From Verrucomicrobiia bacterium (GTDB lineage Bacteria; Verrucomicrobiota; Verrucomicrobiia; Limisphaerales; UBA11358), in the NCBI GenBank assembly GCA_031290985.1, contig JARLJW010000029.1, positions 1-40,991 of the forward strand: a stretch of 40,991 nt of DNA, in the 5' to 3' direction. Of this stretch, positions 11,706 to 28,371 are shown piece by piece. A model generated the notes under the pieces. That model saw only the letters and a list, made by a program, of their open reading frames with translations. It did no database searches and was not told where the DNA came from. The first letter of the stretch is position 1; each line of letters opens with the position of its first letter. The position numbers and the translations under genes were made by a program.

Positions 11706-12935
11706 CTAAAGCTGGACGCCGCGCTTTTTGAAACGGGTGTCGTTGAGAAGCGGGTTGACGGCGCGGAATTCCCCGGTCACCGTGCCGTCGCTCCCGCGCC
11801 CCGTGATTTCAAAACGGTAGAGGTCGTTGAGGATGATTTCGCCCTGCTCGTTGAGGCCGGCGAGCTCGGTCAGGTAGGTGATCTTGCGGGCGCCGTCGGC
11901 CAGTTGCTCGTGCTGGACGATGAGGTTCAAGCCGGAGGCGATCTGCCGGCGGAGTTCCAAGGAAGGCAGCTCCAGGCCGGCGTACATGGCCATGGTCTCG
12001 AGGCGGCCGACGACATCCGCCGGCGTGGCGGCATGCAGCACGGCGAGCGTGCCATCGTGGCCGCTGTTGATGGCCTGCAGATAATCCAGCGCCTCCTCGC
12101 CGCGGATTTCGCCGAGGATGATCCGTGACGGACGCATCCGCAGCGTGTTGCTGAAAAGCTGGCGGACATTGACCGTGCCCTTGCCCTCGATGTTGCTGGC
12201 GCGGGTGAGCAGGCGGACAACATGCCGCTGGTCCAATTTCAACTCCAGCGCATCCTCGATGGTGATGATCCGCTCGTCGGGGGCGATTTCATGCGAGAGC
12301 ACGTTCAGCGTGGCGGTCTTGCCCGCGCCGGTCGCGCCGGAGAACATGATGTTCAGCTTCGCCTGCACGGCCGCGCGCAGGAACCGGCCCATCGGCTCGT
12401 TGATGGTTTTCAGGCGCACGAGATCATCCAGAGATTTCAGGCTGTCGAGAAATTTGCGGATGGTGATCGTGGAACCGTCCACGGCGAGCGGCGCAATGAT
12501 GGCATTGACGCGCGAGCCGTCCTTCAGCGAAAAATCGACATAGGGCGAACTCTCATCCAGCCGGCGACCGGCGAGGGCCAGCATCCGTTCCAAGATGGTG
12601 CGCAGGTGGCCTTCGTCATCGAAGCGCGCTTCCGACAGGATTTTTCGGCCGCTCCGTTCAATGTAGATGCGGTCGGGGCCGTTGACCATGATCTCGGTGA
12701 TGGTGCTGTCCTGCAGCAGGGACTCCAGCGGGCCGAAGCCCAGCATGTCGTCACAAATGCTGGCGATGAGGGAGTCGCGGGCGGCGGGGTCCAGTTGCAG
12801 GCGCTTCTGTTTGAGCCGGGCATCAAGCACGAGGCGCACGGCCTCCTTCGCCTCCGCGAGCGACGGCGTGGTCTTGACGAACCGCATCCCGCTCTCGATG
12901 CGGATTTCGCGTTTCAGGTCCTTGTCGATGGTCAT
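11706..12935 (-). CDS. cpaF: CpaF/TadA-type pilus ATPase 1 (no FHA domain)
   Basis: This 409-residue secretion ATPase (type II/IV, T2SSE family) starts at ATG 12935; a TTG at 12938 would add one residue. Visible are EIMVNGPDRIYIER (~81-94), Walker A GATGAGKT (200-207), the Asp-box ITIEDALEL (~225-233), Walker B region RIILGEIRGEEA (271-282) and a His-box GHDGTLAVLHAATP (~292-305). It lacks the FHA domain of the other two copies, and its His-box reads LAVLHAATP where the others have TTVHANSP or STIHANSP. It is the last gene of the minus-strand cluster, 10 bp after the cyclase-pilin gene. It likely powers Flp pilin extension or retraction at the inner membrane; which is unknown. Confidence 0.9.
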   Translation of the reverse strand: MTIDKDLKREIRIESGMRFVKTTPSLAEAKEAVRLVLDARLKQKRLQLDPAARDSLIASICDDMLGFGPLESLLQDSTITEIMVNGPDRIYIERSGRKILSEARFDDEGHLRTILERMLALAGRRLDESSPYVDFSLKDGSRVNAIIAPLAVDGSTITIRKFLDSLKSLDDLVRLKTINEPMGRFLRAAVQAKLNIMFSGATGAGKTATLNVLSHEIAPDERIITIEDALELKLDQRHVVRLLTRASNIEGKGTVNVRQLFSNTLRMRPSRIILGEIRGEEALDYLQAINSGHDGTLAVLHAATPADVVGRLETMAMYAGLELPSLELRRQIASGLNLIVQHEQLADGARKITYLTELAGLNEQGEIILNDLYRFEITGRGSDGTVTGEFRAVNPLLNDTRFKKRGVQL

Positions 12936-12945
12936 CAAAGCTTGA

Positions 12946-13992
12946 TCAGGGTGAGTTTTTTTTCGAGTCGAAAGAACTCATGTTTTCAGTATTTGCAGCC
13001 GTGCTATTTGAGTTGGTAGAACCAACCGCGATTTGTCCGGCACCAGTTCCGCCTGCGTCCGTCCCGCCAAGGGTCGAGGTATTGCGGTGAAAAACATCTT
13101 TAATTTGCCTTCCAAACAGGCCAACCACCATGACCGAAAATGAAAAAGCCACGACCAGGAACAGGGCCAAGATTGAGTTCAATTCCTTCACGGTCTTGAA
13201 GAACAGCCGGAATATCGAATAAAATAAGATGGGTATGCAGATCGAAACCACGAGGGCGAGGCTGCCCGGCAGGTTGTTTGTGGGGATAAACTTGAACAGC
13301 GCTGCTATCACCAGCAGGGTCAAAACGGCGATCACGCATACGATAACCAGGGCCTTGCCAATGTTTGACTTCCCGGGGGCGGCGGCTTTCGGGGCCGTTA
13401 ACGCCGGGGGCTTTTGAAGCTCTTCCTTGGCAGCGGCCGGTACAAAATTGCACCGCCGGCAGGCAAATATTTCATCGCGTTTGCCGGCGACATGCTCGCC
13501 TGCGTTATAAAATGCCTTCAACTGGTCCGGCAGCGCCTCAAAAGTTTCATAGTCGACGAGCAGTTCACCCTTCTCCGCGGCGGCCTCCAGCCGGACCGCC
13601 CGGGCCACGGTGGTGCCGACGATGCGGCGTTCTTCGGGTATCACGAGCACCAGGCCCGTGGCCGCGCCCATCCGGAACCACCGTTTCGCGGAATCCACCG
13701 ATTTCTGGCGGTTATGGCTGACCACGAGTTCCTGGACGGTTTTGGCGAAGTGATGCATGGTGGCGGCATCATCAAAAATAAGCAGGGCGTTGTCGCCCGC
13801 CGTCCCAAAGACGACATCGTTCCGCTGGATTTGCAGACGGTTCAAGGCTTCATCGACGAATGATTGGATCTGGTCTTGAAAAGTCCGCACCGCTTGAACA
13901 TCGAGGTTTTCTTCGAGAACTCGCGCGATGTCGCTGTAAGCAACCAGATCCAGCTCCAACACGGTTTTGGTTATGCCCTGATTTGGCTGCAT
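12946..13992 (-). CDS. Class III cyclase-like domain joined to membrane segments and a Flp pilin C-terminus
   Basis: The 348-residue product is a composite. Residues ~10-165 resemble a class III nucleotide cyclase homology domain: Asp15 in LELDLVAYSD and Asp67 in GTAGDNALLIF match the two metal-binding aspartates, and GTTVARAVRLEAAAEKGELLV (~126-146) matches the region with the transition-state Asn and Arg. Arg134 is kept, but the Asn is Ala130 and the base-selecting Lys is not evident, so activity is doubtful. A CRRC pair follows at 178-181, then three hydrophobic segments (~211-236, 242-263, 270-293). Residues ~290-348 nearly match Flp1: 24 of 26 identical over VGLFG...GTDAGG and 16 of 18 at the C-terminus (ANTENMSSFDSKKNSP). 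Positive-inside reasoning puts the cyclase in the cytoplasm and the pilin tail in the periplasm. The E-Y processing motif is absent. No known family with this architecture comes to mind. Confidence 0.8.
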   Translation of the reverse strand: MQPNQGITKTVLELDLVAYSDIARVLEENLDVQAVRTFQDQIQSFVDEALNRLQIQRNDVVFGTAGDNALLIFDDAATMHHFAKTVQELVVSHNRQKSVDSAKRWFRMGAATGLVLVIPEERRIVGTTVARAVRLEAAAEKGELLVDYETFEALPDQLKAFYNAGEHVAGKRDEIFACRRCNFVPAAAKEELQKPPALTAPKAAAPGKSNIGKALVIVCVIAVLTLLVIAALFKFIPTNNLPGSLALVVSICIPILFYSIFRLFFKTVKELNSILALFLVVAFSFSVMVVGLFGRQIKDVFHRNTSTLGGTDAGGTGAGQIAVGSTNSNSTAANTENMSSFDSKKNSP

Positions 13993-14032
13993 GTCAAGTG
14001 AGGGTAAGCAGGTTAATCGTCAATCACGCCGG

Positions 14033-14233: not shown

Positions 14234-14291
14234 AAATGCGCCCTCAAATTTTTTCTTTTAAAGCCTTTGCCCTCCCGCTCCATCGAGCTGG

Positions 14292-15932
14292 TCAGGGCTC
14301 AAACAGGCCTGTGATATCGAGTCCGTGTTGTTGTGCGGTCTGGAGGAAAGTGGGTTTGTAGCCGGTGAAGACATGGCGGCCGGTGATCTTGCCATCGGCG
14401 GCCAGGCCCTCGTTCCGGAAGACATAGATGTCTTGCAACTGATATTCGCGGTCCTTCAAGCCCAGCACTTCGGTGACGGCGGTGATCTTGCGGGTGCCAT
14501 CGTGCAGGCGGGCGGTCTGGATGACGACATGGATGGCGGAAGCCACCTGTTCGCGGAGGGCGGACAGGGGAATTTCAATGCCGCTCAACAGCGCGCAGGT
14601 CTCCATCCGCAGCAGGCTGTCGCGCGGGCTGTTGGCGTGGATGGTGGACATGCTGCCTTCATGGCCGGTATTCATGGCCTGCAAGAGGTCGAGCGCCTCG
14701 CCGCTGCGGATTTCGCCGACCACAATCCGGTCGGGCCGCAGGCGCAGGGCGGAATGGAGCAGGTCGCGGATGGTGACCTCGCCCTTGCCGTATTCATCCG
14801 GCTTGCGGGTTTCGAAGCAGACCTTGTGGTTCTGTTGCAGTTGGAGTTCGCTGGCATCCTCCAAAACCAGGATGCGGTCATTGTCGGGAATGAGGCTGCT
14901 CAGCACGTTGAGCACGGAAGTTTTGCCGGAGGAGGTGGCGCCCGAGACAATGAGGTTCCGGCCGATCTTTACGATGACATCAATCAGCCGCGCGCCTTCC
15001 TTGGTGATGCTGCCGAACTGGACAAGCTGGTCCATGGTCAGCTTTTCCCGGCGGAATTTGCGGATGGCGACGATGGTGCCGGCGCGGGAAAGCGGCGGCA
15101 TGACGGCATGAACGCGCGAGCCATCCGGCAGGCGCGCGTCCAGCCGGGGGTTTTCCTTGTCAAAGAAACGACCGACGCTGCGCGCGACATTCATCAACGC
15201 GGCTTGCAGGGCCTGTTCGCTGGCAAACTTCTCGGGCACCGGGGTCAGCTTGCCCTTGCGCTCGATGTAAATTTGCGCGGGACCATTGATCATGATTTCC
15301 GAGACGTCGTCATCCGAGAGATACTGCTGGACCGGGGCGAAGAACAGATAGAGGTAGGAAAGTCCGGGCTTCGGCGGGGTCTTTTTTAGGGGCTCGGCGG
15401 CTGGCTTTTCTGCCGGCGCAGGCGACGGGGCCTTGGTGGCGGAGGTGGCGGTAGCTGGACCCTTGGTGGCGGATTCGTCCGGCAAGCCGGCCATGTGGCT
15501 TATTTCACTGCTGGCTGCTTTGGCGGCTAAATCAGATTTATGACCATCATGATTATATAAGGTCTTATCAATAGATGCCTTATCACTGCTTGTCGCCTCG
15601 GGGTGTTCTAATGGTGTGGCGGCTGACCCCGATAAGTTGCGGATAATAACCTTGGTTGAACCGGTGCTAATAACATCGCTGGCTTTTACCGGGGCATCAG
15701 CGGTGCAGGCTTTGCCATTGAGCAGGAACACACCTTGCGCGCCTTTAACCTTTAAAGTGCAGGGCTCGGTATCTCCTTGGAGCAGCAGTTCCGCACCACT
15801 ATCATTATAAGGTTCGAGCGAGAGATTGCATTTGGCATTAAAGCCGATGGTGATGGCGGGCTCGGCGAAACGAAATAAGCGGGATTTCTGGCCTTCCCGT
15901 TGAACTTCAAAAGTTACAATAATAGGCTTCAT
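14292..15932 (-). CDS. cpaF: CpaF/TadA-type ATPase 2 with a degenerate FHA-like N-terminus
   Basis: The 546-residue product starts at ATG 15932. Residues 1-100 look like an FHA beta-sandwich (ITIGFNAKCNLSLEP, GVFLLNGK) but lack the GR, SxxH and N phosphothreonine-binding residues. An Ala/Pro/Thr/Lys-rich linker (~100-190) follows, with AT-richer DNA at about 15530-15700 than its surroundings. The ATPase domain has SEIMINGPAQIYIER (~211-225), Walker A GATSSGKT (331-338), LVLEDASEL (~355-363), IVVGEIRSGEALD (~403-415) and GHEGSMSTIHANSP (~423-436). It is the first gene of the minus-strand cluster, divergent from flp1. It is probably a hexameric inner-membrane-associated pilus motor; the linker suggests the N-terminal domain is a tethered docking module. 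Confidence 0.88.
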   Translation of the reverse strand: MKPIIVTFEVQREGQKSRLFRFAEPAITIGFNAKCNLSLEPYNDSGAELLLQGDTEPCTLKVKGAQGVFLLNGKACTADAPVKASDVISTGSTKVIIRNLSGSAATPLEHPEATSSDKASIDKTLYNHDGHKSDLAAKAASSEISHMAGLPDESATKGPATATSATKAPSPAPAEKPAAEPLKKTPPKPGLSYLYLFFAPVQQYLSDDDVSEIMINGPAQIYIERKGKLTPVPEKFASEQALQAALMNVARSVGRFFDKENPRLDARLPDGSRVHAVMPPLSRAGTIVAIRKFRREKLTMDQLVQFGSITKEGARLIDVIVKIGRNLIVSGATSSGKTSVLNVLSSLIPDNDRILVLEDASELQLQQNHKVCFETRKPDEYGKGEVTIRDLLHSALRLRPDRIVVGEIRSGEALDLLQAMNTGHEGSMSTIHANSPRDSLLRMETCALLSGIEIPLSALREQVASAIHVVIQTARLHDGTRKITAVTEVLGLKDREYQLQDIYVFRNEGLAADGKITGRHVFTGYKPTFLQTAQQHGLDITGLFEP

Positions 15933-16116
15933 GGTCCCAATTTATCAGCATAAATCCCCGGGAGTGGCTAAAAGTCAGGCACCAAGGATCCGGGCTGTCT
16001 CAATCTGATGCATTTTTTGCTTGTATCTACTCTGAATTAGTGGTTATTCTCATGCGTTGGTTGCAGAAAGCGAGTCCAAACTGAACGAATCGGAAAATAA
16101 ATCAAGAAGGATTGAT
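15933..16116. promoter_or_regulatory. Divergent intergenic region between the two Tad operons
   Basis: This 184-bp gap separates cpaF2 (-) from flp1 (+) and must hold promoters for both operons unless they are read from outside. It contains AT-rich segments (around 16010-16050 and 16090-16116). I could not assign a convincing sigma-70 or sigma-54 promoter pair by eye. The flp1 Shine-Dalgarno (AGAAGG, ending at 16110) is the only clear signal. Confidence 0.45.
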
Positions 16117-16386
16117 ATGAAACTACTCGGACGCAAACTTCACAACTCCCGTGCCATCGCCATGACCGAATACTTGATTATTCTGGCCATTGTGGCGATT
16201 GCGGCCATAGCCATCGTTGGCCTGTTTGGCAAGCAGATTAAGGACGTCTTTTATCGCAACACCTCGACCTTGGGCGGAACGGACGCGGGCGGACACAGCG
16301 CTTCGACCATCACCGGGTCGGCTTCCACCGCTGCCGCCAACACCGAAAACATGAATTCTTTTGACAGCAAAAAGAATTCGCCTTGA
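16117..16386 (+). CDS. flp: Flp-type major pilin 1
   Basis: The 89-residue pilin starts at ATG 16117, six bases after AGAAGG; the frame is open upstream but that part does not resemble a pilin. It has a short basic leader, SRAIAMTEYL with Glu18-Tyr19 at the +5/+6 positions, a 20-residue hydrophobic helix (LIILAIVAIAAIAIVGLFG), then a polar Ser/Thr/Ala-rich tail with RNTSTLGGTDAGG and ENMNSFDSKKNSP. The residue before the expected cut is Ala13 rather than the canonical Gly. The tail is longer than in many Flp pilins (50-70 residues). It is the first gene of the main Tad operon, and its stop overlaps the flp2 start. Confidence 0.92.
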   Translation: MKLLGRKLHNSRAIAMTEYLIILAIVAIAAIAIVGLFGKQIKDVFYRNTSTLGGTDAGGHSASTITGSASTAAANTENMNSFDSKKNSP

Positions 16387-16658
16387 AAATTTTTGGCCAT
16401 AAGGTCCGCAGCCGTCAGGGCATCGCCATGACGGAGTATCTGATCATTTTGGCAATAGTGGCGATCGCAGCGATTGCGATTGTTGGCTTGTTTGGGCAAC
16501 AGATCAAAGACGTTTTTTATCGCAACACTTCGACGCTCGGTGGGACGGATGCCGGCGGCCATAGCGCCTCGACGATCACCGGCAATGCGTCGACGGCGGC
16601 CTCCACCACCGAAAACATGGATTCTTTTGACAAGAGTAAAAATAGCACCGGGCAATGA
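16383..16658 (+). CDS. flp: Flp-type major pilin 2
   Basis: The 91-residue pilin begins at TTG 16383, which overlaps the TGA of flp1 (TTGA), implying translational coupling. The choice of TTG is supported by end-to-end alignment with Flp1 from residue 1. By my count 72 of 89 aligned residues are identical. The leader ends RQG before IAMTEYL, so Flp2 has the canonical Gly at -1 that Flp1 lacks. The mature helix and the block through GTDAGGHSASTITG are nearly identical; the last ~20 residues differ most. It is probably a tandem duplicate and either the main or an alternative subunit. Confidence 0.9.
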   Translation: MKIFGHKVRSRQGIAMTEYLIILAIVAIAAIAIVGLFGQQIKDVFYRNTSTLGGTDAGGHSASTITGNASTAASTTENMDSFDKSKNSTGQ

Positions 16659-16697: not shown

Positions 16698-16723
16698 GCA
16701 TGCACGGGCTAAAACATGCATGC
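16698..16723 (+). promoter_or_regulatory. GCATGCA/TGCATGC hairpin before cpaB
   Basis: GCATGCA (16698-16704) and TGCATGC (16717-16723) form a 7-bp stem with a 12-base loop between flp2 and cpaB. It buries the alternative cpaB start ATG 16716, favouring ATG 16749. Such a structure could lower read-through from the highly expressed pilins to the rest of the operon; no T-run follows. Confidence 0.4.
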
Positions 16724-16748
16724 GCGTGAGATCGGGCTGTTGCTAACT

Positions 16749-17600
16749 ATGAAAAACAAATTTCCGCTGATTGTGGCCTTGATAATCGGGGTGGGGGCGC
16801 TTTTGGCCATCCGGCAATATGTCAACAAGATGGAGCAGGAGGCGGCCGCGAAATTAAAGGGTGAATTGGTGGTCGCGGCGAGCGTGGATATTCCCGCCGG
16901 GACGGAATTGACCATGCAGATGATTTCCCCCAAGGAGGTTCCGCCGCAGTTCATTCCCGCCCAGGCGATCCAGGGCAGTGACCAGGTAAAGCAGATTTTG
17001 GGCAGAAAAGCGCGGGTGGCGGTCACGGCCGGCCAGATCATTCTCTGGTCGGATTTGGCCAGCGAAACCCGGGGCGGACTTTCATCCATCATTCCCGAGG
17101 GGGAAGGGGCCTTCACGGTATCCATCGCCAAAGGCATCAAGCCGGGCCTCATTCAACCGAGTGATCATATCGACATCATCGCTTCTTTTGCCATTCCCAA
17201 GCCGAACCAGCCGCTGCCGACGGATGCCAACGCCGCCGCGTCGTGGCGGGAGGTTTCGGATGTGGTCAATGTGGTCGTGCTGCAAAATGTCACCGTGCTG
17301 GCGGTGGGAGACACTTTTGGTGGCGGGGTGAAATCACAAAACGAATCCGGCGGCGACCTGACCCTCTCGCTGACCTTGAGCGAGGCGCAATTGGTCATGT
17401 TTGCGGGTCAGAATGGCGAACTGGGGGCGGTTCTGCGCCGGGAAGGTTCCACCACCTTCACGCCGGCCGACCAGCGGCAGCGGGTCACCTTTGAGGCGAT
17501 TGAAAAAATCGTGGGCGACCTTGATGGCAAGCGAAATTACCGCAATGTCGAGGTTCAAAAAGGTTCGCAAAGCACGTCGGTTCCGGTGTCAAACCATTAA
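16749..17600 (+). CDS. cpaB: CpaB/RcpC pilus assembly protein
   Basis: The 283-residue product has an N-terminal membrane anchor (PLIVALIIGVGALLAI) and a SAF-like domain (~residues 36-105) with VVAASVDIPAGTELTMQMI, KEVPPQFIPAQAI and VTAGQIILWSDL. An RcpC-like region follows (GAFTVSIAKGIKPGLIQPSDHIDIIASF). CpaB proteins sit in the periplasm and work with the CpaC secretin as an outer-membrane channel accessory. I chose ATG 16749 because the membrane anchor begins there; ATG 16716 would add eleven residues and lies in a hairpin. It is followed 16 bp later by cpaC. Confidence 0.88.
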   Translation: MKNKFPLIVALIIGVGALLAIRQYVNKMEQEAAAKLKGELVVAASVDIPAGTELTMQMISPKEVPPQFIPAQAIQGSDQVKQILGRKARVAVTAGQIILWSDLASETRGGLSSIIPEGEGAFTVSIAKGIKPGLIQPSDHIDIIASFAIPKPNQPLPTDANAAASWREVSDVVNVVVLQNVTVLAVGDTFGGGVKSQNESGGDLTLSLTLSEAQLVMFAGQNGELGAVLRREGSTTFTPADQRQRVTFEAIEKIVGDLDGKRNYRNVEVQKGSQSTSVPVSNH

Positions 17601-17616
17601 ATCACGAAGGAAATAT

Positions 17617-19008
17617 ATGAAAAAAATCACCTTTAGGACGTTTTGTTTGCGGGCGGCGTTGGTTTGCTGCCTGCTGTCATCGGCCTGTCTTTCGTCCTTG
17701 CGGGCGGACGACCTGACTGTGCTCAAAGGTTCCAGCGCGAAGATTTTTATTCCCGGGGGGGTGAAGAAAATCGCGGTGGCCAACCCGAGCGTGGCGGATG
17801 TGAAGCCGGAAATGGACGGCCAGTCGGTGCTCATCAGCGGCCTGGCGGAAGGCAACACCGAGCTGCGCGTCGAAGGAATGCAAGGCGGAGAACTCGTCAC
17901 CAACGTTGTGGTGCGTTCCGACCTGAACCAAATGCTGGCTCAAATCAAAGATTTGCTGTCGGAGGTGGAGGGGCTGGAGATCAAGGCGGTCGGCGACAAG
18001 ATCGTCCTGCGGGGCAAGATCTTGACGAAGTCAGATTATGACCAGGTTTCCAAGGTGGTGGCGGCTTATTCCGGCCTGATCCTGAACCTGGCAAAATTTG
18101 ATGACAGCATCGTGGGCAACTATGCGGCTCAGGCGATTTTACAGGACATCGGGATTGATACGGTCACGGCCCGGGTGGTGGGCGACACGGTCATTTTGGA
18201 AGGCGTGGTTTACAGCCAGGCGGATCTGAAGCGGGCGGAGGAAATTGCGCACCTGAAAGTGCCGAATGTAAAGAATCTGCTGCAGGTCCAGGACATCATG
18301 GTGGAAACCGACGTGCAGTTCATCGAAGTCAGCATTCAAAACGGCAAGAACACCGGGTTTAACCTGTTGGACACATTGGGGGCCGCGATGTCCGGCTCCG
18401 GTTCGAGCCAGGGCGGGGGGTTGCCGATCAATTTCGGCGTCTCGGCGGGCGCCTCCAGCGGAATCCTGAACATGCACTGGCAAAACGCGACCGGGAAAAT
18501 TGTGGCGCAACCGCATTTGAGCACGAAGAGCGGCGAGGTGGGGGAATTTCAATCCGGCGGCACAACTTACTTTCAGATCGCCGGCAATGTCGGCGGCAGT
18601 TTGCAGAGCGTGGACTACGGGGTGATCTTGAAGGTCAAGCCGACCGTCCAAGGGCGGGACCATATTCAAAATGAGGTTTCCATCGAGGTCAGCCTGCCGG
18701 TGAAGGATGCTTCAGGCCGGTTCACCTTGGACAAGTATACCACCAAGTGCACGTCTTTGTGCAAAGTCGGCGAAAGCATGGTCATGTCGGGCATGACCCA
18801 GTTGCTGGCCTCCAAGAGCAACGACCGGACGCCGTTGATCGGCGATGTCCCGCTGATCGACCTGTTCTTCAGCAACAAGACCGCCAACAAGGACAAGAAG
18901 GAATTTGCGATCATCGTGACGCCGCAGCCGGTGTTTCCCAAGGTGGCCACCGGCCTGCCGCTGGGCGAGCAGCACCAGAAGATGATGGACGAAAAGAACA
19001 AGGACTGA
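17617..19008 (+). CDS. cpaC: CpaC/RcpA secretin
   Basis: The 463-residue outer-membrane secretin starts at ATG 17617, preceded by GAAGGA. It has a signal peptide (MKKITFRTFCLRAALVCC..., cut after LRA near residue 31), an N-terminal secretin-associated domain (KKIAVANPSVADVKP, ~50-64), a BON-like segment (VEGLEIKAVGDKIVLRGKI, ~113-131) and the C-terminal secretin domain. The latter shows VQFIEVSIQNGKNTGFN, the DYGVILKVKPTV strand, MVMSGMTQLL and the hallmark TPLIGDVPLIDLFF (~408-421). It forms the pore through which the pilus leaves. Its stop is one base from the next start. Confidence 0.93.
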   Translation: MKKITFRTFCLRAALVCCLLSSACLSSLRADDLTVLKGSSAKIFIPGGVKKIAVANPSVADVKPEMDGQSVLISGLAEGNTELRVEGMQGGELVTNVVVRSDLNQMLAQIKDLLSEVEGLEIKAVGDKIVLRGKILTKSDYDQVSKVVAAYSGLILNLAKFDDSIVGNYAAQAILQDIGIDTVTARVVGDTVILEGVVYSQADLKRAEEIAHLKVPNVKNLLQVQDIMVETDVQFIEVSIQNGKNTGFNLLDTLGAAMSGSGSSQGGGLPINFGVSAGASSGILNMHWQNATGKIVAQPHLSTKSGEVGEFQSGGTTYFQIAGNVGGSLQSVDYGVILKVKPTVQGRDHIQNEVSIEVSLPVKDASGRFTLDKYTTKCTSLCKVGESMVMSGMTQLLASKSNDRTPLIGDVPLIDLFFSNKTANKDKKEFAIIVTPQPVFPKVATGLPLGEQHQKMMDEKNKD

Positions 19009-19009
19009 C

Positions 19010-20623
19010 ATGGCTGACGGCCCTCAGCGAGTTCCCGGCGTGCTGGTCATTTATGGCGGCGAATACACTGGAGAGCAGATTGAAGTGGCCGGCGACCGGC
19101 TGTCAATCGGCCGTTCCACGGAGTGTGACATCATCCTCCGGAACAAGGATGTTTCCTCCCGCCATGCCCAACTGGTCATCCGGGACAAGGTGTGCTGGCT
19201 GCAGGACCTGGGCAGCAGCAACGGCACGCTGCTCAAGAAAAGAAAGATCATCCAGCATCCGCTGGCTTCCGGGGACGAGTTTTACATCGTCAACTACCGG
19301 TTCGTCTACGCGGAAAACGCCGAGGCTTTTGCCGAAAAGGCCGAGGCGACGATGGAGGAGATCCGGCAAAAACTTCATGCCCAGCTCATCGGCGAATTGA
19401 ACTTGAAGCGCCTGACCCTGGCGCAAATGGCGGACCAATCCTTGCGCCGGCGGGCCGGCGACGTGCTGGACAAGCTGATTGAAGAACGGGAGAAGGACAT
19501 CCCGGCGCAATATGACCGCGCGGAGCTGAAGAAGGCCGTGCTGGATGCGGCGCTGGGACTCGGGCCGCTGGAAGACCTGCTGGCCGATGCCGAGGTGACG
19601 GAAATCATGGTGAACGGCCCGCAAAAAATTTATGTGGAGCGGAACGGCAAGCTGCAAAAAACCACAAAATCATTTTTGGGCAAAAATGAAATCCTGACTT
19701 CCATCGAGCGCATCGTCGGGCCGATCGGCCGGCGCATCGATGAGTCGAGCCCGACGGTGGACGCCCGCCTGCAGGATGGTTCCCGGGTGCATGCGATCAT
19801 TCCGCCCCTCGCCCTGGACAGTCCGACGATCACCATCCGTAAATTCCCCAAAAAGCGCATCGTGGCGGATGATCTGGTCCACTACGGCAGCATGTCGCAA
19901 CCCATGGCTGAATTTTTGCGGATCTGCGTGCTGGCGGTCCGCAACATGGTCATCTCCGGCGGCACCGGGTCGGGCAAAACGACCCTGCTGAATGTGATGG
20001 GGGCCTTCATTCCCGATGGCGAACGCATCATCACAATTGAAGATTCCGCGGAATTACGCCTGCCGCAGGAACATGTGATCCGCCTGGAAACCCGTCCGTC
20101 CAACATCGAAGGAACGGGCGAGGTGACCATCCGTGACCTGGTGCGCAACGCCCTGCGCATGCGGCCCAACCGGGTGGTGGTGGGCGAGTGCCGTGGCGGT
20201 GAAGCGCTGGACATGTTGCAGGCGATGAACACCGGGCATGATGGGTCGTTGACCACGGTGCACGCCAATTCGCCGGCTGATGCCGTCCGCCGGCTGGAAA
20301 ACCTGGTGCTCTACGCCGGCACCGACCTGCCCCTGCGGGCGATCCGCGACCTGATTTTTTCAGCCGTCCACCTCTTTGTCCAAATCTCGCGGTTTTCGGA
20401 CGGCTCGCGCAAGCTGATCTCGATCGCCGAAGTGGCGTCCATGCATGACGGGGAGATCAAGCTCCAGGAAATTTTCAAGTACCGCCGGACCGGGATCGGC
20501 GATGACGGGCGGATCCAGGGCCAGTTTTCGGCGACCGGGATCATCCCCACATTCGTTGAAGAGCTGCGCCAGGCGGGCCTGGCCGTGGACATGGCCATGT
20601 TCGTGCCCACTTCGGTTGAGTGA
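19010..20623 (+). CDS. cpaF: FHA-domain CpaF/TadA-type ATPase 3
   Basis: The 537-residue product fuses an intact FHA domain (residues ~9-100: [33 protein letters not shown]) to a CpaF ATPase. ATPase marks are [14 protein letters not shown] (~198-211), Walker A GGTGSGKT (317-324), [27 protein letters not shown] and [14 protein letters not shown]. It keeps every residue expected of an active motor and sits at the usual cpaF place between the secretin and tadB, so it is the best candidate for the canonical TadA. The FHA domain should bind phosphothreonine peptides, suggesting phosphorylation-controlled recruitment. Confidence 0.93.
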
Positions 20624-20626
20624 CCT

Positions 20627-21490
20627 ATGTTATACCTCATACTGATCCTTGTATTCGGGGCGGTCGGGACCGGATTTTATTTTTTATACCAGCCGGCGCA
20701 GGCGGCGATGCAAAAAAACGTGTTCCGCCAGAAGGAGCATGTGGCCCATGAACTGGAGGAGATGTTCATCTTCATTTCCGTGGACAGCCTGCAGAAGATC
20801 AAATGGAGCCTGTCGATGGTGGTGGCCGGGGTGGGGCTGATCCTGACCTGGGAGGCCAAGCCGCCGGCCCCGCTGATCGCCGCCGCCCTGCTGGGGATCA
20901 TCGCTTACTGGGGGCCGGAGCTTTTCATCATTTATCTGCGCAAGAAACGGCGGGCGGCCTTCAGCCAGCAACTGGTGGACGGACTGGTGCTGATGTCCAA
21001 TGGCTTGCGTTCGGGCTTCACCCTGCAGCAGGCGATCGACATGCTGATCGAGGAGATGCCGGCGCCCATTTCCCAGGAGTTTGAACTCGTGCGGCGTGAA
21101 TTTAAACTGGGCGTGGACCTGGATGTGGCCTTGCGGAATTGCGTCAACCGGACCAAGGACGAGGATTTGGATCTGGTGGTGACGGCGATCCAGATCACCC
21201 GCCAGCTCGGCGGCAACCTCGCGGAGGTGTTTGACCGGATCGTGGCGATGGTGCGCGAGCGCAAAATCTTGGCGGGCAAGGCGGATGCGCTGACCTCCGA
21301 GGGGAAATTGCAGGCGCTGGTCGTGGGCCTGCTCCCCTACGGTTTCCTGTTTGCCATGATCAAGGTCAATCCGGACATGATGCGGATAATGTGGACGACG
21401 TTCCCGGGATTCATCGCGCTGCTGCTGGTGATCATCCTGGATACGGTCGGTTACCTGTGGGTGCGCAAGGTCGCCAACGTGGAATATTAA
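20627..21490 (+). CDS. tadB: TadB inner-membrane platform protein
   Basis: This 287-residue type II secretion system F-domain protein has an N-terminal membrane helix, a second hydrophobic pair (~62-100), a cytoplasmic T2SSF domain with FSQQLVDGLVLMSNGLRSGFTLQQAIDML and TAIQITRQLGGNLAEVFDRI, and a C-terminal hydrophobic pair. TadB and TadC form the platform on which CpaF acts. The start is three bases after the cpaF3 stop. Confidence 0.92.
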   Translation: MLYLILILVFGAVGTGFYFLYQPAQAAMQKNVFRQKEHVAHELEEMFIFISVDSLQKIKWSLSMVVAGVGLILTWEAKPPAPLIAAALLGIIAYWGPELFIIYLRKKRRAAFSQQLVDGLVLMSNGLRSGFTLQQAIDMLIEEMPAPISQEFELVRREFKLGVDLDVALRNCVNRTKDEDLDLVVTAIQITRQLGGNLAEVFDRIVAMVRERKILAGKADALTSEGKLQALVVGLLPYGFLFAMIKVNPDMMRIMWTTFPGFIALLLVIILDTVGYLWVRKVANVEY

Positions 21491-21491
21491 C

Positions 21492-22274
21492 ATGAACGCC
21501 ACACTCAAACAATTTCTGGGCTGGATGGGCGACAAGGGCTGCCAATGGGGCGGCGGATTCGCCGACAAGCATGTCGAGAAGCTGAATGCCAAGCTGGTCA
21601 TGGCCGGGGAGCCCGGCGACATGAAGGGCCGGGAACTGTTTGGCATACAACTGGTATGCCTGATCATGGTCCCGATTTTTTGGGGGGTGGTGATCGGCCA
21701 TTTTGATTTTGTCGCGTTTCTGCTGGAGGGACCAAAACAAATTTTGGTGTACCTGGCCCTGATGTTTCTAGGCTTCTCGTTTCCCGCCATGAACCTGAAC
21801 GAACGGGCGGCGAAGCGGCAAAAAAACATCGCCTTGCAACTGCCGGACACCCTGGATTTGCTGACCATTTCCGTGGAGGCGGGTCTGGACTTCATGTCCG
21901 CGATGCGGCGGGTGGTGGAAAAGCACCGGCCGGGACCGTTGAAAGACGAGTTGGAACGGTTCTTTAAACAAACGGAACTGGGCCGTCCGCGCCGCGAATC
22001 GTTGCGGGAAATGGCCAACCGGGTGCAGTTGCAGGATTTGACCGCCGTGGTTTCCGCCTTGATCCAGGCCGACCGGCTGGGCGTGAGCATCGGCCCGATT
22101 TTGCGGACCCAGTCGGACATGCTGCGGATCCGCCGGGGTCAACGCGCCGAAAAGGCCGCGCAAGAGGCGCCGGTCAAGATGATGGCGCCGCTGATGATTT
22201 GCATTTTGCCCTCGGTGTTCATAATGATTCTGGCACCGGTCATCATTCAGATGATCATGAACATGCACCATTAA
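21492..22274 (+). CDS. tadC: TadC inner-membrane platform protein
   Basis: The 260-residue product is the second T2SSF-domain platform protein. It has two hydrophobic segments (~50-75 and 80-98), the T2SSF core with LQLPDTLDLLTISVEAGLDFMSAMRRV and ALIQADRLGVSIGPILRTQSDMLR, and a C-terminal helix (MMAPLMICILPSVFIMILAPVII). It starts one base after the tadB stop and is followed by the FHA-membrane protein three bases later, so it is clearly within the operon. Confidence 0.92.
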   Translation: MNATLKQFLGWMGDKGCQWGGGFADKHVEKLNAKLVMAGEPGDMKGRELFGIQLVCLIMVPIFWGVVIGHFDFVAFLLEGPKQILVYLALMFLGFSFPAMNLNERAAKRQKNIALQLPDTLDLLTISVEAGLDFMSAMRRVVEKHRPGPLKDELERFFKQTELGRPRRESLREMANRVQLQDLTAVVSALIQADRLGVSIGPILRTQSDMLRIRRGQRAEKAAQEAPVKMMAPLMICILPSVFIMILAPVIIQMIMNMHH

Positions 22275-22277
22275 AAC

Positions 22278-23771
22278 ATGAAAGGTTTTCTGACAATCAT
22301 GGAAGGCGCCGGCAAAGGCAGCCAGCGGCCTTTGACCTCGGCTCTGGTCATCGTGGGCCGTTCCAAAAATGCCGACCTGCAGATTGAAGACCCGCTGGTC
22401 TCCCGGCGCCATCTCGAGATCCGGGTGGAGGGGGACGCGGTGTTTGTCGAAAACAAAAGCACACAGGGCGCCTTTTTAAACAGCAAGCCGCTGGTGGGCA
22501 TCGTCTCCTTGAATGCCGGCGACCTGATCCAGATCGGTGACACCAAGCTGCGTTTTGATGAAGCGTCGTCGCCGGCGGCGCCGGTGGCCGAGGCCTCGCC
22601 GGTCGAGCCCATGTCCTCCGCCCTTGATGGCACCAAGATCGCGGATTCGCAGGTGGAATTTCAGCGCCAGAAGAAAGAAGCCCCCTCGCCCGACGCCACG
22701 CGGGCCATGGTCGAGGACGGCACGCGGATGCTGAATCCCTCCGAGCTTCCCAACTGGGTGGCGCCGAAAAAAACGGAAGCGCAAAAGCAGAATAAAACCG
22801 TGCCGCTGTTGTGGCTGCTGGTGGCGATGGTGGCCGGACTGGGGTTGCTGTATTGGTTCAAGCGCAGCAGCGCCCACGATGCCCCGCAGGGCATGATTGA
22901 ATACAAGGACTCCCTCTATGGCTTCCAGTTGCAGCGTCCGCTGGACTGGGCGAAATTAAAGGATGAGGCCAACTTCATCTCGTTTGGTTTTGGCCGGCAG
23001 GGGGAACGTGATTCCGGGGCGCTCAACATCTACACCGACAAAAGCCCGTTGCATGAATTGACCGGTCTGACCGACGGCTTTGTGGGGTATCAACAAATCC
23101 TCAAGGCCCGGTACAAGGATTTTGAGCTGATCGGCAGCAAGCTGATCCACATCAACAACGCCACGGTGATCTTTTATGGGTTCAGCACGCCGGCCGTGCA
23201 GGGCAAGGGGGTGTATACGTTGAACGGAGATTCCCGGATCGTGGTGGAGTGCGTCAGCCCGGTGTCGTCATACCAGCAATATGCCCATGCCTACGGGTCG
23301 CTGTTGCAGGGTTTCCGGCTGGGCGATTTTGATCCGCAACAGTTCATCGACTTCCCGCTGCCGGACGAGTCCATGCAGCAACTGGCGCTGGCCAACCCCG
23401 CGGAACTGGCGCGCCAGGTGGACCAACATGCCCGCCAGGGTGACATGTTCTTGAATAATCCGTATGTCAAACCCGACAATTTGTATAATTCCATCCAGGA
23501 GTTCCAGAAGGCGCTGCAGCTCGCCAAAGCCGCGGCCCATGATCTGCCGGCGTATCCCTCCATCGCGCAGCGGCTGGGCCAGGCGACCAGGCTGTTCAAC
23601 CAGTCGCTGGACCGGGAGCGGTTTGAAATCAGCCGCGCACTGAAGGACGGGGACACGACCACGGCCTATTGGGAGGCGAACAAAATGATGCAGATGGTGC
23701 CGGACAAGGTGGATCCGGTTTATCAGGAGGCGTACCGGGTCGTCCGCCAAACCGCCCCGCATTCGCAATAA
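22278..23771 (+). CDS. FHA-domain membrane protein of the Tad locus
   Basis: The 497-residue product has an N-terminal FHA domain (residues ~5-95: ALVIVGRSKNADLQI, VSRRHLEIRV, STQGAFLN), a flexible linker with VEDGTRMLNP, one membrane segment (LLWLLVAMVAGLGLLYW, ~176-192) and a C-terminal part. That part begins YKDSLYGFQLQRPLDWAKL, reminiscent of PsbP/DcrB-like domains, and ends in a helical region (~360-497) that may form TPR-like hairpins. The expected topology is FHA in the cytoplasm and the rest periplasmic. In the FHA motif the usual N at the end of SxxN is Gln-Gly, so phosphopeptide binding is uncertain. Such a protein could link cytoplasmic phosphorylation to periplasmic assembly; that is inference. 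Confidence 0.75.
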   Translation: MKGFLTIMEGAGKGSQRPLTSALVIVGRSKNADLQIEDPLVSRRHLEIRVEGDAVFVENKSTQGAFLNSKPLVGIVSLNAGDLIQIGDTKLRFDEASSPAAPVAEASPVEPMSSALDGTKIADSQVEFQRQKKEAPSPDATRAMVEDGTRMLNPSELPNWVAPKKTEAQKQNKTVPLLWLLVAMVAGLGLLYWFKRSSAHDAPQGMIEYKDSLYGFQLQRPLDWAKLKDEANFISFGFGRQGERDSGALNIYTDKSPLHELTGLTDGFVGYQQILKARYKDFELIGSKLIHINNATVIFYGFSTPAVQGKGVYTLNGDSRIVVECVSPVSSYQQYAHAYGSLLQGFRLGDFDPQQFIDFPLPDESMQQLALANPAELARQVDQHARQGDMFLNNPYVKPDNLYNSIQEFQKALQLAKAAAHDLPAYPSIAQRLGQATRLFNQSLDRERFEISRALKDGDTTTAYWEANKMMQMVPDKVDPVYQEAYRVVRQTAPHSQ

Positions 23772-23804
23772 ACCGATTAGTTAAGACAACCAGACCATAA
23801 AATT

Positions 23805-25802
23805 ATGGGTGCCGTTTTTATCGTAACCAAAAACAAGAAGCAGGTGGCAAAAGCCGGCGTCACCGGCGATGTTTTTATCATTGGCCGTTCCAAAGACTGC
23901 AACCTGCCGGTGGATGAATCCCTGGCCTCGCGCCACCATGTCGAAGTCAAGCTGGAGAAAGGCGCCTACTGGGTCCGGGATTGCGGCAGCCGGAACGGCA
24001 CCCTGCTCAACGGCGCCAAGCTGCTCGAACCCCAGGCATTGAAGGACGGGGATGAGCTTGAGATCGGTTTGACGCAGTTGAAATTCATCTGGGATCAAGA
24101 CCGGGGCGGCGGCGGGGGCGGGACGGACGAAGACCGGACGCGCGCCGCGTCGTTTGCGGATGATGGAAAAAAAGCCGCGGGCAAGGAGGTCGTGGCGAAA
24201 AAGAAGCCGGGCGGGCTGCTCGTCAAATTACGGGTGGTGGACGGGCCGTTGCAGGGCGGAACCTTCCGTGACTGGGAGGGGCCGTTGAACATCGGTCGCG
24301 GGCTGGAAAACCATGTGGTGCTGCTGGATGACGCGGTCTCGATCGCCCACGCCCGGATCGTGCACGAAGACGGCGCGTATTTCATCGAGGATCTGCAAAG
24401 CAGCAACGGGACGTTTCTGGACGGGGTCAAGGTGCAAAAGACGTTGCTGACGGACGGCAAGAAGATCAAGGTGGGCATATCCACGCTGGTCTTTGAGCTG
24501 GTGGATCCGCAGAAGCAGCGGCGGCAGTTGAAGATCGCCTTGATCACCATCAGCGTGATCGCCGTGCTGGCCCTGGCGGTCAAATTCTTGCAGCCGCCGG
24601 ATGTGGCCGGGCAGCATATCGCGCTGGCGCAGGATTACTTTTCACGGGACGACATGGCGAAGGCCGCGGACGAATATGCGGCGGCGCTGAAGATTGATCC
24701 CAACCGCGTGGAGGCCAAGCGCGGGCTGCAACTGGCCAAGGATGAGATGGAGGCGGACGAGCTGTTGAAGCAGGCCGAGCAGGAGGCGACGGCGGAAAAT
24801 TATGACAAGGCGAAGGAGCTGTGTTACCGGGTGCTGCGCAGCTTCCCCCAGAAGCCCCAGGCGGTGGAACTGGCGGCGGTCATCAAGTCCATCGAGAACG
24901 CCAAGCTCGCCTTTGCTTCGCGCAACTGGGCGGACGCCAAGCATCTGCTGGACAAGGTGCATGAAACCTATCCCCAGTCCAAATTGATCCGGCTGCGGCT
25001 GGATGAGGCGCAAAATGAACTCGTGGCCGAAGGCAATCTGGCGAAGGCCAAGGACGACCTGAGCCACCAGCAGTTTGAACTGGCGCAGCCGGTGCTGCAG
25101 TCGATCCCCGCGAACAGCGTGTATTACACCGAGGCCAAGGAACTGCTGGATCAGATCGCCAACCGGCTGGTGGTGAACGATTATTTGAACAAGGCCCAGG
25201 CGTCCTACCGGGATGGCAACATCGCCGACGCCCTGCAGTCGCTGGATGACGGGCTGAAACAGTCGCCGGGCAACGCCCTGTTGCTGGACTTTCAAAAGCA
25301 CGTCCGGCAAATGGCGGCCCTGACCAAGCCGCTGGAAACTGCGGAGCTGGCCAGCCAGCCGAAGGATGTGAACACCGTGCTCCAAGACCAGGCCACCTGC
25401 CAAAAAATCATCAGCCTGGAGGACGACCCCCTGAACGCCTTCCGGAAGCGGGCGCAAGCCGCCCAGGCGAACATCGCGGACCGGCTGACGCAGATCGCGC
25501 AGGAATATGCGGCCAAGGCGGTGACGCTGTTACAAGCCGGCAACCGGAAGGAGGCCCTGCAGGCGTTCGACCTGGCGCTGAAGGCCAACGCCGGCGATCA
25601 GGCCGTGATCGACCAGCGGAACAGCCTGTTCCAGAAAATCATGGCGGATTGCAAGGATCTGTATCAGAAGGGAATCGTGCACCAGGATCTGCAACAGACG
25701 GCCCTGGCCCGCGCGGCCTTTCAAGAAATCCTCAAGATTGGGGTGCCGGGTGAAGATTATTATGAGCGGGCCACCCGGAAGTTGAAGGCGCTGGCCCCCT
25801 GA
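23805..25802 (+). CDS. Double-FHA, single-pass, TPR-repeat protein
   Basis: The 665-residue product has two FHA domains: residues ~5-95 (FIIGRSKDCNLPV, ASRHHVEVKL, CGSRNGTLLNG) and ~143-230 (LNIGRGLENHVVL, IAHARIVHED, QSSNGTFLDG). A Gly/Lys-rich linker separates them. A membrane helix follows (~245-262, ALITISVIAVLALAVKFL), then a long periplasmic helical region with TPR character (YFSRDDMAKAADEYAAALKIDP and further repeats to the end). A TPR protein is standard in Tad loci (TadD, a lipoprotein), so this may fill that role, but here it is anchored by a membrane helix and carries FHA domains. The second FHA has Ala-His in place of Arg-His. Confidence 0.8.
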   Translation: MGAVFIVTKNKKQVAKAGVTGDVFIIGRSKDCNLPVDESLASRHHVEVKLEKGAYWVRDCGSRNGTLLNGAKLLEPQALKDGDELEIGLTQLKFIWDQDRGGGGGGTDEDRTRAASFADDGKKAAGKEVVAKKKPGGLLVKLRVVDGPLQGGTFRDWEGPLNIGRGLENHVVLLDDAVSIAHARIVHEDGAYFIEDLQSSNGTFLDGVKVQKTLLTDGKKIKVGISTLVFELVDPQKQRRQLKIALITISVIAVLALAVKFLQPPDVAGQHIALAQDYFSRDDMAKAADEYAAALKIDPNRVEAKRGLQLAKDEMEADELLKQAEQEATAENYDKAKELCYRVLRSFPQKPQAVELAAVIKSIENAKLAFASRNWADAKHLLDKVHETYPQSKLIRLRLDEAQNELVAEGNLAKAKDDLSHQQFELAQPVLQSIPANSVYYTEAKELLDQIANRLVVNDYLNKAQASYRDGNIADALQSLDDGLKQSPGNALLLDFQKHVRQMAALTKPLETAELASQPKDVNTVLQDQATCQKIISLEDDPLNAFRKRAQAAQANIADRLTQIAQEYAAKAVTLLQAGNRKEALQAFDLALKANAGDQAVIDQRNSLFQKIMADCKDLYQKGIVHQDLQQTALARAAFQEILKIGVPGEDYYERATRKLKALAP

Positions 25803-25839
25803 GGTCGCGCCGCCATCAGCCCATCCCGATGATGAAGCC

Positions 25840-26802
25840 ATGAAACTGCATCTGGCCATTCCGCTCATGTGGGTCATGACGGCCGGGGCTTTTGCGGCGC
25901 CACAAATCGAGGTGGACCAGCCGCGCTGGAATTTCGGCACCGTGACCAACGGCTACGCGGAGGATCACGATTTTTTGATCCGGAACCGCGGGGATGAGAC
26001 GTTGCGAATCAGCCGGGTGCTTTCCAGTTGCAGTGCATGTTTGTCCGCGCAGATGCCGTCAACCAACCTCCCGCCCGGCGGCACCGCCACGGTGCGGGCG
26101 CATCTGGATTTACGCACTCTGACCGGGGCGGTGACGCGCGCGATCCTGGTGGATTCCAACGATCCCAAAACGCCCTCCGTGATCCTGAACCTGGCCGGCG
26201 TGGTCGTTCCGGCCTATCAGGTGGTGCCGCCGGAAATCAACCTGGACCTGTCCCGGAACCAACCGGCGGCCACCGTTGAAATCAGCGCCTTGACGGAAGG
26301 CGGCGGCGCCTTGGCGCAGGTGTCCAGCAGCGACACAAATGTCATCGCCACCATCACCCGGCGGGCGACCAGCCCGGGGGAATATGTGGTGGCCATGCAG
26401 GTGCTCAATTCATTGCCGCGGGGAAACACGGTGTGTGTCCTGACCGCGCGCGGAACCGATTCCAACACCGAGCCCTGCCGGGTGCTTTGTTATATTCGCA
26501 ATCCGCCGGATCTGGAATTGACCCCGGTGCAGTTAAGGCTGCAACCGGTGGACGAGCTGCAAAGACGCATCCTGTGGATCCGTCAGCGGGGGCCAACCCC
26601 CTTGATTTTGCTTGATATTTTGGCTTCGTCCGCTACCATCAAGTGTGAAATTGTTCCGGAATCGACCCGGTTCAATTACCGGGTAAACGTGGCGGCGCGG
26701 GGTCAGAAAAACCATTCCGGCCAGACCAACTGGCTGACGCTGAAAATGCAGGACCAGAATTTGCAGGAGAGGCTGGTGCCGGTGCCCGTGTCGGTGAACT
26801 GA
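25840..26802 (+). CDS. DUF1573-type periplasmic protein
   Basis: The 320-residue product begins with a signal peptide (MKLHLAIPLMWVMTAGAFAA). Residues ~25-130 match DUF1573 in layout: PRWNFGTVTNGYAEDHDFLIRN, a Cys-containing SSCSACLSA, an LPPGGTATVRAHLD strand and a SNDPKTPSVILNLAGVV end. This Ig-like ASH-type fold is common in exported Bacteroidetes and Verrucomicrobia proteins. The remaining ~190 residues contain at least one similar Ig-like domain. A periplasmic chaperone or structural role in pilus assembly is possible from context only. Confidence 0.75.
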   Translation: MKLHLAIPLMWVMTAGAFAAPQIEVDQPRWNFGTVTNGYAEDHDFLIRNRGDETLRISRVLSSCSACLSAQMPSTNLPPGGTATVRAHLDLRTLTGAVTRAILVDSNDPKTPSVILNLAGVVVPAYQVVPPEINLDLSRNQPAATVEISALTEGGGALAQVSSSDTNVIATITRRATSPGEYVVAMQVLNSLPRGNTVCVLTARGTDSNTEPCRVLCYIRNPPDLELTPVQLRLQPVDELQRRILWIRQRGPTPLILLDILASSATIKCEIVPESTRFNYRVNVAARGQKNHSGQTNWLTLKMQDQNLQERLVPVPVSVN

Positions 26803-26826
26803 TCAGAAGCAGCATCCGGAAAAAAT

Positions 26827-27057
26827 ATGCTCCCAGTGGAAAATAAAGGAACGAACCCGGCCGGACTAAATCTGGTGGCCAGGTTTATGGAGTGCCTGCG
26901 GGATGAGCGCGGCTCGGTCATGACGGAGTATCTGCTGGTCACCGGGATCATGGTGCCGGTGGCGGCCTACCTCTTCCACCCGGACAACGGCCTGTATCAG
27001 GCCGTCCGCGCCCAGTACGATACGACGACGACCCTGTTGATGTATCCCGGCCCCTGA
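26827..27057 (+). CDS. Third Flp-like prepilin (minor or initiating)
   Basis: The 76-residue product carries a long leader (29 residues) ending DERG before SVMTEYLLVTGIMVPVAAYLF, so Gly29 is at -1 and Glu34-Tyr35 at +5/+6 as in Flp prepilins. The helix is short and broken by Pro, and the tail (HPDNGLYQAVRAQYDTTTTLL) is unlike Flp1 and Flp2. It sits just before the peptidase gene, away from the major pilins. A minor or assembly-initiating pseudopilin is the likely role. Confidence 0.8.
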   Translation: MLPVENKGTNPAGLNLVARFMECLRDERGSVMTEYLLVTGIMVPVAAYLFHPDNGLYQAVRAQYDTTTTLLMYPGP

Positions 27058-27073
27058 CTTCAAGCTCCACGGC

Positions 27074-27634
27074 ATGCCACCCGCATCATCCATCCCGCCA
27101 GTTGATTTCCCGGCAGTGCCGGCCGCCGCCAGTCCGCTCGCGGCCATGCTGATTTTGTTTGTCCTGCTGACGGTGGCGGTTTACATGGAATTGAAAGAGG
27201 GCCGGATTCCGAACTGGCTGACGCTGGCCGGCATGGCCGCGGGATTGCTGGTCGCGTTCCTGCACGGGCAGCCGGTTTTTTGGTCGAGCCTCGGGGGGCT
27301 GCTCATTGGCTTTGGATTCCTGTTCATTTTTTATTTGTTTAACGGGGTCGGCGGCGGCGATGTGAAGCTGATGGGTGCGGTCGGGGCTTTGCTGGGGGCG
27401 GAACTGATCAAGCCGGCCTTGTTTTATACGACCTTCATTGGCGCCTTTCTGGCGGTGATGATCTTCGTCTGGCGCAAAGATTTTTGGCTGCGGGTCAGTT
27501 GGGGTTTGCAAAACCTGGTTTTCTGGCGCCAACCAGAGGCGAAGCAATTGACCAGGCTGCCGGCCATCAAAGTGCCCTACGGCATAGCCATTGCCACCGG
27601 CTGCGTGCTGGCCCTGCTGGCCAGGGGCAGCTAG
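27074..27634 (+). CDS. cpaA: CpaA/TadV prepilin peptidase (A24 family)
   Basis: The 186-residue polytopic protein has the A24 hallmark GGGDVKLMGAVGALLG, which supplies the second catalytic Asp (GxGD). The first motif reads VYMELKEGRIPNWLTL; in most family members the residue six before IPN is Asp, and here it is Glu. It should remove leaders from Flp1, Flp2, the third pilin and the TadE-like proteins at the inner membrane. ATG 27074 gives a Pro/Ala-rich 24-residue N-terminus; ATG 27146 (MLILFV) is a possible later start. Confidence 0.87.
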   Translation: MPPASSIPPVDFPAVPAAASPLAAMLILFVLLTVAVYMELKEGRIPNWLTLAGMAAGLLVAFLHGQPVFWSSLGGLLIGFGFLFIFYLFNGVGGGDVKLMGAVGALLGAELIKPALFYTTFIGAFLAVMIFVWRKDFWLRVSWGLQNLVFWRQPEAKQLTRLPAIKVPYGIAIATGCVLALLARGS

Positions 27635-27648
27635 AACCCGTTTTCTCC

Positions 27649-28365
27649 ATGGAAAAACCGCTTCATAACGGAGGCCTGCTCAGGGATGAGCGGGCGGTGG
27701 CGTTGACTGAATTTGCCATCGTCATGCCGGTGGTGCTGCTGTTCTTTTTGGTGATGTTGCAATATTTTGCGGCGCTCCGGGCGGCGCAGCTTGGCAACTA
27801 TGCCGCGTATGTTGCGGCGCGTTCCTATGCCGTCCGGCATTCGCAGCCCGATGCCTTGACCGCGGCCGCGATGGCGCTGGCGCCCACGGCCAAGTTTGTC
27901 CCGGGCGAAGCGGGCGGCGGCGGCGGCTCGGGCATATTGTCACAGGTGATGGGAGACAAGGCCGGCGATTATGCGGCCGGCCTGGCGGCGGCCTACGTTC
28001 GCCTCCAGGGAAATGCATTTTCCGCAAAAAAAGATCCCATCAACGGCAGCAGCCTGCAGCAGGCGAGCGTGGTCATCAACTATCCGCAGCCCATCTACGC
28101 GCCGGGATTGAAACCGCTTTGGAACATGCTGGCCGGTCCGGATATCAACACCAAACTGGCTCCGTTGGCCGGGGGCGGCTGGTTTGGTTTCCTCAATTCA
28201 ATCCCATACGTCAACATCCAGAGCAGGTGCGCCACCGGCTACGAGACCTGGGGTGAAGATTCGGCCTACAATGACGCCGCAAAGAAAGTAAAAACCTACA
28301 GCGTGTGGGATCCGAATGACTGGGGCAGCGGCTCCCACTGGCAACCGCGGGAGGCGCGACAATAA
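27649..28365 (+). CDS. TadE-like pseudopilin
   Basis: The 238-residue product starts at ATG 27649. It has a short leader, RAVALTEFAIVMPVVLLFFLVML with Glu21-Phe22 at +5/+6 (Ala16 at -1) and a hydrophobic helix, then the AALRAAQLGNYAAYVAARSYAV segment typical of TadE-type proteins, and a Gly-rich periplasmic part. TadE proteins are minor pseudopilins processed by the prepilin peptidase. The gene ends 6 bp before the TadG-like gene. Confidence 0.82.
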   Translation: MEKPLHNGGLLRDERAVALTEFAIVMPVVLLFFLVMLQYFAALRAAQLGNYAAYVAARSYAVRHSQPDALTAAAMALAPTAKFVPGEAGGGGGSGILSQVMGDKAGDYAAGLAAAYVRLQGNAFSAKKDPINGSSLQQASVVINYPQPIYAPGLKPLWNMLAGPDINTKLAPLAGGGWFGFLNSIPYVNIQSRCATGYETWGEDSAYNDAAKKVKTYSVWDPNDWGSGSHWQPREARQ

Positions 28366-28371
28366 TCCGCC

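Follow-up and report, generated by a model that had tools for sequence, protein, structure and literature searches.

The analysed DNA, a stretch of 40,991 nucleotides that we call the window, carries within a Tad pilus locus a gene whose product joins, in frame, a cyclase-like domain to the tail of a Flp pilin. The fusion, first noticed in a sequence-only reading of the window, is confirmed in the assembly: the gene (12946..13992, minus strand) is a complete ORF of 348 amino acids, the sole full-length copy in its own genome, and its tail aligns to the flp genes. As assembled, the chimera is genuine, and it is unusual. We tentatively read it as a predicted inner-membrane protein whose atypical class III cyclase fold, also predicted, and tail from the locus's own Flp pilin may make it a pilin-mimicking sensor or regulator of the Tad pilus, a reading to which we give somewhat less than even weight. 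A pilin tail and a nucleotide-cyclase fold in one Tad-locus protein would give a testable, direct link from pilin to nucleotide signalling, and would bear on how cells learn the state of their Tad pili.

The chimera and its Tad locus

Residues 7-182 (13447..13974, minus strand) fit the class III nucleotide-cyclase fold, both in a profile match and in a predicted model. They are followed by a predicted three-helix membrane region spanning residues 211-292 (13117..13362, minus strand), with helices at 211-235, 243-268 and 274-292, the last extended to residue 306 in the AlphaFold model. The pilin-derived tail, residues 290-348 plus the stop codon (12946..13125, minus strand), starts at the motif VGLFG and is supported by genome search, alignments and a tree. 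The membrane region rests on hydropathy and the AlphaFold helices. In the predicted topology its three helices leave the cyclase-like domain cytoplasmic and the tail periplasmic, on the side that pilin tails occupy.

The gene sits between two T2SSE ATPase genes, all three on the minus strand. On one side is tadA1 (14292..15932; T2SSE E 1.4e-51), which has a weak FHA/YscD-like N-terminus (PF16697, E 0.0044, below its cut-off); on the other is tadA2 (11706..12938), whose ATG lies about 10 nt past the chimera's stop. Divergent from these, on the plus strand, are the genes for two Flp pilins identified as ORFs and by alignment, flp1 (16117..16386; 89 aa) and flp2 (16383..16658; 91 aa), with sub-threshold Flp_Fap matches at E 0.0047 and E 0.00022, respectively. 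The rest of the Tad set follows at 16716..29664, where domain matches mark CpaB/RcpC, a secretin, a third T2SSE ATPase, two T2SSF platform proteins, FHA proteins, a DUF1573 protein, a prepilin peptidase, TadE and TadG. The locus thus contains three T2SSE ATPase genes (11706-20623), two of them on the strand opposite the pilins, and upstream of it lies a gene (1930-8511, plus strand) for a protein of 2193 aa that matches an Ig-like domain.

Between tadA1 and the chimera lies a gap of 299 nt, which holds a 66-aa ORF with a signal-peptide-like start (14033-14233, minus strand). A repeat element was considered for this gap and rejected, as searches of the genome found no further copy of the gap sequence at their thresholds (40 of 55 candidates scored in one search). 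RNA structure in the gap is unremarkable (z -1.33), and a scan for promoters and terminators gave results near the shuffled expectation.

Origin and retention of the pilin tail

In pairwise alignments from V290 to the stop, the tail is identical to Flp1 at 46 of 55 residues and to Flp2 at 38 of 56, which bears out the pilin match reported from VGLFG onward; no further tail matches were found in the genome at E<=1e-3. At the nucleotide level identity is 71.5% to flp1 and 64.9% to flp2, and comparison with flp1 gives a dS of about 1.6 and a dN of 0.19, divergence that, as had been argued, speaks against a misjoin. Tail and flp1 also form an inverted repeat (13048-13125 / 16216-16293, 83%). In a tree of 35 pilins (alignment A3, comprising flp1, flp2 and 33 of 117 other listed matches), the tail groups with Flp1 of this genome, its closest relative, with support of 0.969, which points to derivation from this genome's own flp1 lineage. 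The amino-acid tree gives branch lengths of 0.45 for the tail, 0.00 for Flp1 and 0.08 for Flp2, making the tail the fastest of the three copies.

The C-terminal pilin segment, from VGLFG to the stop, is present in the chimera with its core pilin residues and original stop codon kept, and the changed residues lie mostly within a stretch that is variable among pilins. The prepilin cleavage motif is missing, as had been claimed for the E-Y processing site: AMTEY (MTEY, Glu5-Tyr6) aligns to a gap. Flp_Fap is unreported by Pfam for the chimera up to E 1. Beyond residue 308 the tail is predicted without confidence (AlphaFold pLDDT < 50); it was modelled almost without relatives, since the 16 pilin rows in the structure alignment (A5) failed to align to it.

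A three-branch codon model covering 56 codons assigned the tail a branch omega of 0.11. A neutral tail branch fits worse (2dlnL 5.2, reached in 2 of 200 neutral simulations), and the 42 of 56 residues equal to Flp1 in the codon alignment were matched in only 3 of 200 (mean 33.7, highest 43). These models hit saturation on long branches, and with three sequences they leave selection before and after the fusion inseparable. Because neutrality so rarely reached either value, the tail has probably been kept by purifying selection, which may have acted before the fusion, on a pilin copy that has since been lost. The GC3 of the tail, 0.47, is unlike that of the chimera body and the flp genes, but the paired shift (13 to 5) has p 0.10, so codon bias is not taken as proof that the tail has long resided in the gene. 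A tally of copy-specific changes, 7 synonymous and 3 non-synonymous, made on conserved blocks chosen by hand, is unused as well because it omits the variable stretch.

A cyclase-like family with exchanged C-terminal modules

A word-based search over 5.8 billion proteins gave 122 matches, 120 of them listed, including the window's own protein. Among the matches listed, most align over the N-terminal domain and cover about half of the query; P0008 and P0078 reach 80% and 81%. Outside this domain the proteins vary: the search together with a domain scan of 10 members gave PDZ, FHA, HAD_SAK_2, Bacterial Death-like domain 1 and TRADD-like domains, with a DUF4384 match just below its cut-off. By hydropathy, 72 of the 120 matches listed have no membrane helix, 43 have one, three have two and two have three, the last being only the query and P0008. 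P0008 is 52% identical to the chimera over residues 3-282, and the resemblance includes the membrane region (residues 208-292 compared, alignment 213-282; score 88, best shuffle 56, 0 of 2000 shuffles as good). Past helix 3 the similarity between the two proteins is gone, with 881 of 2000 shuffles scoring as well. Taken by itself, helix 3 resembles neither P0008 (553 of 2000 shuffles as good) nor Flp1 (616 of 2000) more than shuffled sequence does, which leaves a pilin-derived helix 3 unsupported. By these alignments, the chimera belongs to a family defined by a conserved N-terminal cyclase-like domain and many different C-terminal modules, and since that domain carries so many modules, the pilin tail appears to be a swapped-in module. 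The simplest history would start from a P0008-like three-helix protein whose C-terminal module gave way to the pilin tail, either within helix 3 or directly behind it.

Both metal-binding aspartates claimed for the domain, at positions 15 and 67, are kept and invariant: D15 occurs in 116/116 and D67 in 117/117 family rows having a residue there. Arg134, the transition-state Arg, is kept in 119/119 rows. Other positions depart from the canonical pattern. The base-specifying Lys position is G63 in the chimera and Lys in 6 of 117 rows, its Asp/Thr partner is T127, and the transition-state Asn position is A130, where the five commonest residues (115 of 119 rows) exclude Asn. Some adenylate cyclases have Thr at the second base-specifying position, so loss of the Lys is the firm part of the mismatch in this pair. 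Compared with the class III cyclases Ma1120, CyaC, CyaB and Rv1264, the chimera's family replaces the base-specifying Lys and the transition-state Asn nearly throughout; it is a family that keeps its metal-binding residues, loses two canonical ones and swaps C-terminal modules. Of the 119 further cyclase homologues listed, 61 went into alignment A5 and 25 into A4. VIA-align has no rows for the membrane or tail part, both barely probed there.

With the canonical Lys and Asn missing, we rejected active adenylate or guanylate cyclase as a label. For the same reason the part of the earlier interpretation in which the protein alters a cAMP or cGMP signal is weakened to doubtful; the cyclase-like fold, the predicted topology and tail placement, the missing motif and the Tad setting are supported. 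A Pycsar cyclase was also set aside, the match to the PycC model being weak and local (E 0.0056, 42 residues only), and no cognate effector gene was recognised beside the chimera, whose neighbours are the Tad ATPases and, in the upstream gap, the 66-aa ORF.

Counting the window's own genome, cyclase-family matches occur in 1 of 49 genomes of the genus, 10 of 293 of the order (E<=1e-3) and 1 of 387 of the phylum (E<=1e-15). None from another genome in the order sample reaches the pilin tail, and a second chimera was rejected when a protein search with residues 195-348, covering 1621 candidates, recovered no protein other than that of the window. Searching with the protein and its parts, as the sequence-only reading had proposed, thus recovered a family through the cyclase part and the full architecture in one genome; absence from all related genomes was half of what that reading, pairing it with non-expression, had named as telling against itself. 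The wider context of the order-sample matches takes in seven loci, with L017-L020 and L023-L025 left out. Because no Tad gene is seen close to the family member at nine loci in other genomes, some of which sit on short contigs, Tad linkage appears to go with the pilin tail, and the two are seen together in the window's genome only. Carriage by a mobile element was rejected as well: 17 pattern matches in viral contigs were not confirmed, and plasmids gave no match.

A close tadA1 was found in only two other genomes among 320 (E<=1e-172), G040 of the same genus and G089 of the same order; G015 has a more distant ATPase only. In G040, tadA1 shares 72% and tadA2 73% identity with its counterpart in the window, and the two lie 40 nt apart with no gene between them. 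In G089, tadA1 occurs without tadA2 in the stretch read, with an FHA gene on one side and genes for a protein kinase and a PP2C phosphatase on the other. With so few relatives carrying a close tadA1, the chimera is most simply read as an insertion between tadA1 and tadA2 in this lineage.

The same two genomes hold other pilin-like ORFs. On a contig of G040 other than that of the Tad ATPases (C157, L035:2126-2767), a 213-aa Flp-like pilin (Flp_Fap E 0.001, sub-threshold) contains a linker of Gly/Ser repeats and, at its C-terminus, an extra hydrophobic helix with a Lys tail, so that a congener too has a protein combining pilin and membrane parts. In G089, two 303-aa ORFs (C75, L048:14349-15260 and 16274-17185), far longer than a Flp pilin, have stretches that by eye resemble a pilin; the first has a weak match to Flp1 (E 3.5e-4), neither has a Pfam match, and the same stretch encodes an FHA protein, a protein kinase and a PP2C phosphatase.

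Proposed pilin mimicry and its alternatives

Because the prepilin cleavage site is missing, the tail would stay membrane-anchored and uncleaved. It could then pair with Flp1 and Flp2 in the membrane pool, or take a pilin's seat on the platform proteins. Pilin occupancy might shift helix packing and so alter dimerisation of the cyclase-like domain, in which the metal-binding residues are kept, with an atypical nucleotide product or a nucleotide-dependent contact with the flanking ATPases as the putative output. A more specific version is a candidate receptor that poses as a pilin to sense the pilus state, its captured Flp1 tail switching a cyclase fold with an unusual active site from within the pilin pool or platform, a direct relay from pilin to nucleotide signal; this we consider doubtful. 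In favour of the sensor reading in general are the predicted fold with its metal-binding Asp pair and Arg134, the module difference from P0008, descent of the tail from this genome's flp1 lineage, the purifying selection on it, and the position between tadA1 and tadA2, with Tad linkage seen only where the pilin tail is. Several findings weigh against it, among them the restriction to one genome, the fast evolution of the tail, selection on it that may predate the fusion, its low model confidence past residue 308, a helix 3 without pilin-helix similarity, and the lost Lys and Asn.

PilS is a sensor kinase and to our knowledge, unlike the chimera, carries no pilin tail of its own. The PilS-PilA pair of Pseudomonas is nonetheless the closest working analogy and a precedent for pilin-pool sensing: PilS is described as responding to levels of PilA in the inner membrane (PMC6058289), much as proposed here for the chimera. 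Nucleotide control of Caulobacter Tad pili is known for c-di-GMP (PMC6581867), and CpaL, from the same pili, is a predicted minor pilin of the pilus tip, fused to a vWA domain, and a candidate mechano- or surface sensor (PMC12607857). CpaL resembles the chimera in being a Tad protein that combines a pilin-like part with another domain; the chimera differs in placing a cyclase-like domain, predicted to be cytoplasmic, before a pilin C-terminus that lacks a processing site. Neither PilS, c-di-GMP control nor CpaL is known to put a pilin tail on a cyclase fold. The claim that no system of this kind has been described was borne out in the open-licence literature, where our searches found neither such a fusion nor such a regulator.

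The strongest rival to the sensor reading is a tolerated chance fusion, in which a three-helix cyclase-family gene landed between tadA1 and tadA2 and gained an in-frame tail from a stray copy of flp, while its cyclase part serves a pathway of its own. Occurrence in a single genome, the scattered and rare family in the order and phylum samples, the long tail branch and the deviating GC3 are consistent with it. Against these stand rejection of a neutral tail branch, even if selection may have acted before the fusion, retention of the core pilin residues and original stop, and a predicted topology that suits a pilin; we judge such an accident rather unlikely. The missing processing site, the pilin tail in pilin topology, the ATPase genes on both flanks and the lost canonical residues would also fit a structural role, in which an anchored pilin-like subunit that escapes processing caps the pilus base, tethers it or blocks an idle platform, with the cyclase-like domain as a nucleotide-gated switch instead of a signal generator. 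Packing of type IV pilins is driven by the N-terminal helix, however, and helix 3 has no detectable similarity to it; we consider this role distinctly unlikely.

We think it highly improbable that the family serves defence-like systems, with the tail as bait or sensor for an attacker of Tad pili such as a phage. Bacterial Death-like domain 1 or a TRADD-like domain does occur in two scanned members, the weak PycC match points the same way, and cNMP cyclase domains have been linked to predicted conflict systems, where a cyclase-like domain likewise combines with interchangeable adaptor modules (PMC8195603). The chimera's module, by contrast, is a pilin tail inside a Tad locus, other members carry PDZ, FHA or other modules, and the PycC match is short, with no effector gene recognised alongside. 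An assembly artefact joining two unrelated sequences is extremely unlikely. Pilin tails are repeats, and the window is one whole contig of a 113-contig draft genome judged from the assembly alone, which weighs against the sensor reading too. Yet the known flp copies offer little for a misjoin because the tail differs so much from them, with 14 nt common with flp1 at the junction, and tadA2 comes 10 nt later in the same orientation, keeping the order seen in G040, where it also lies downstream of tadA1.
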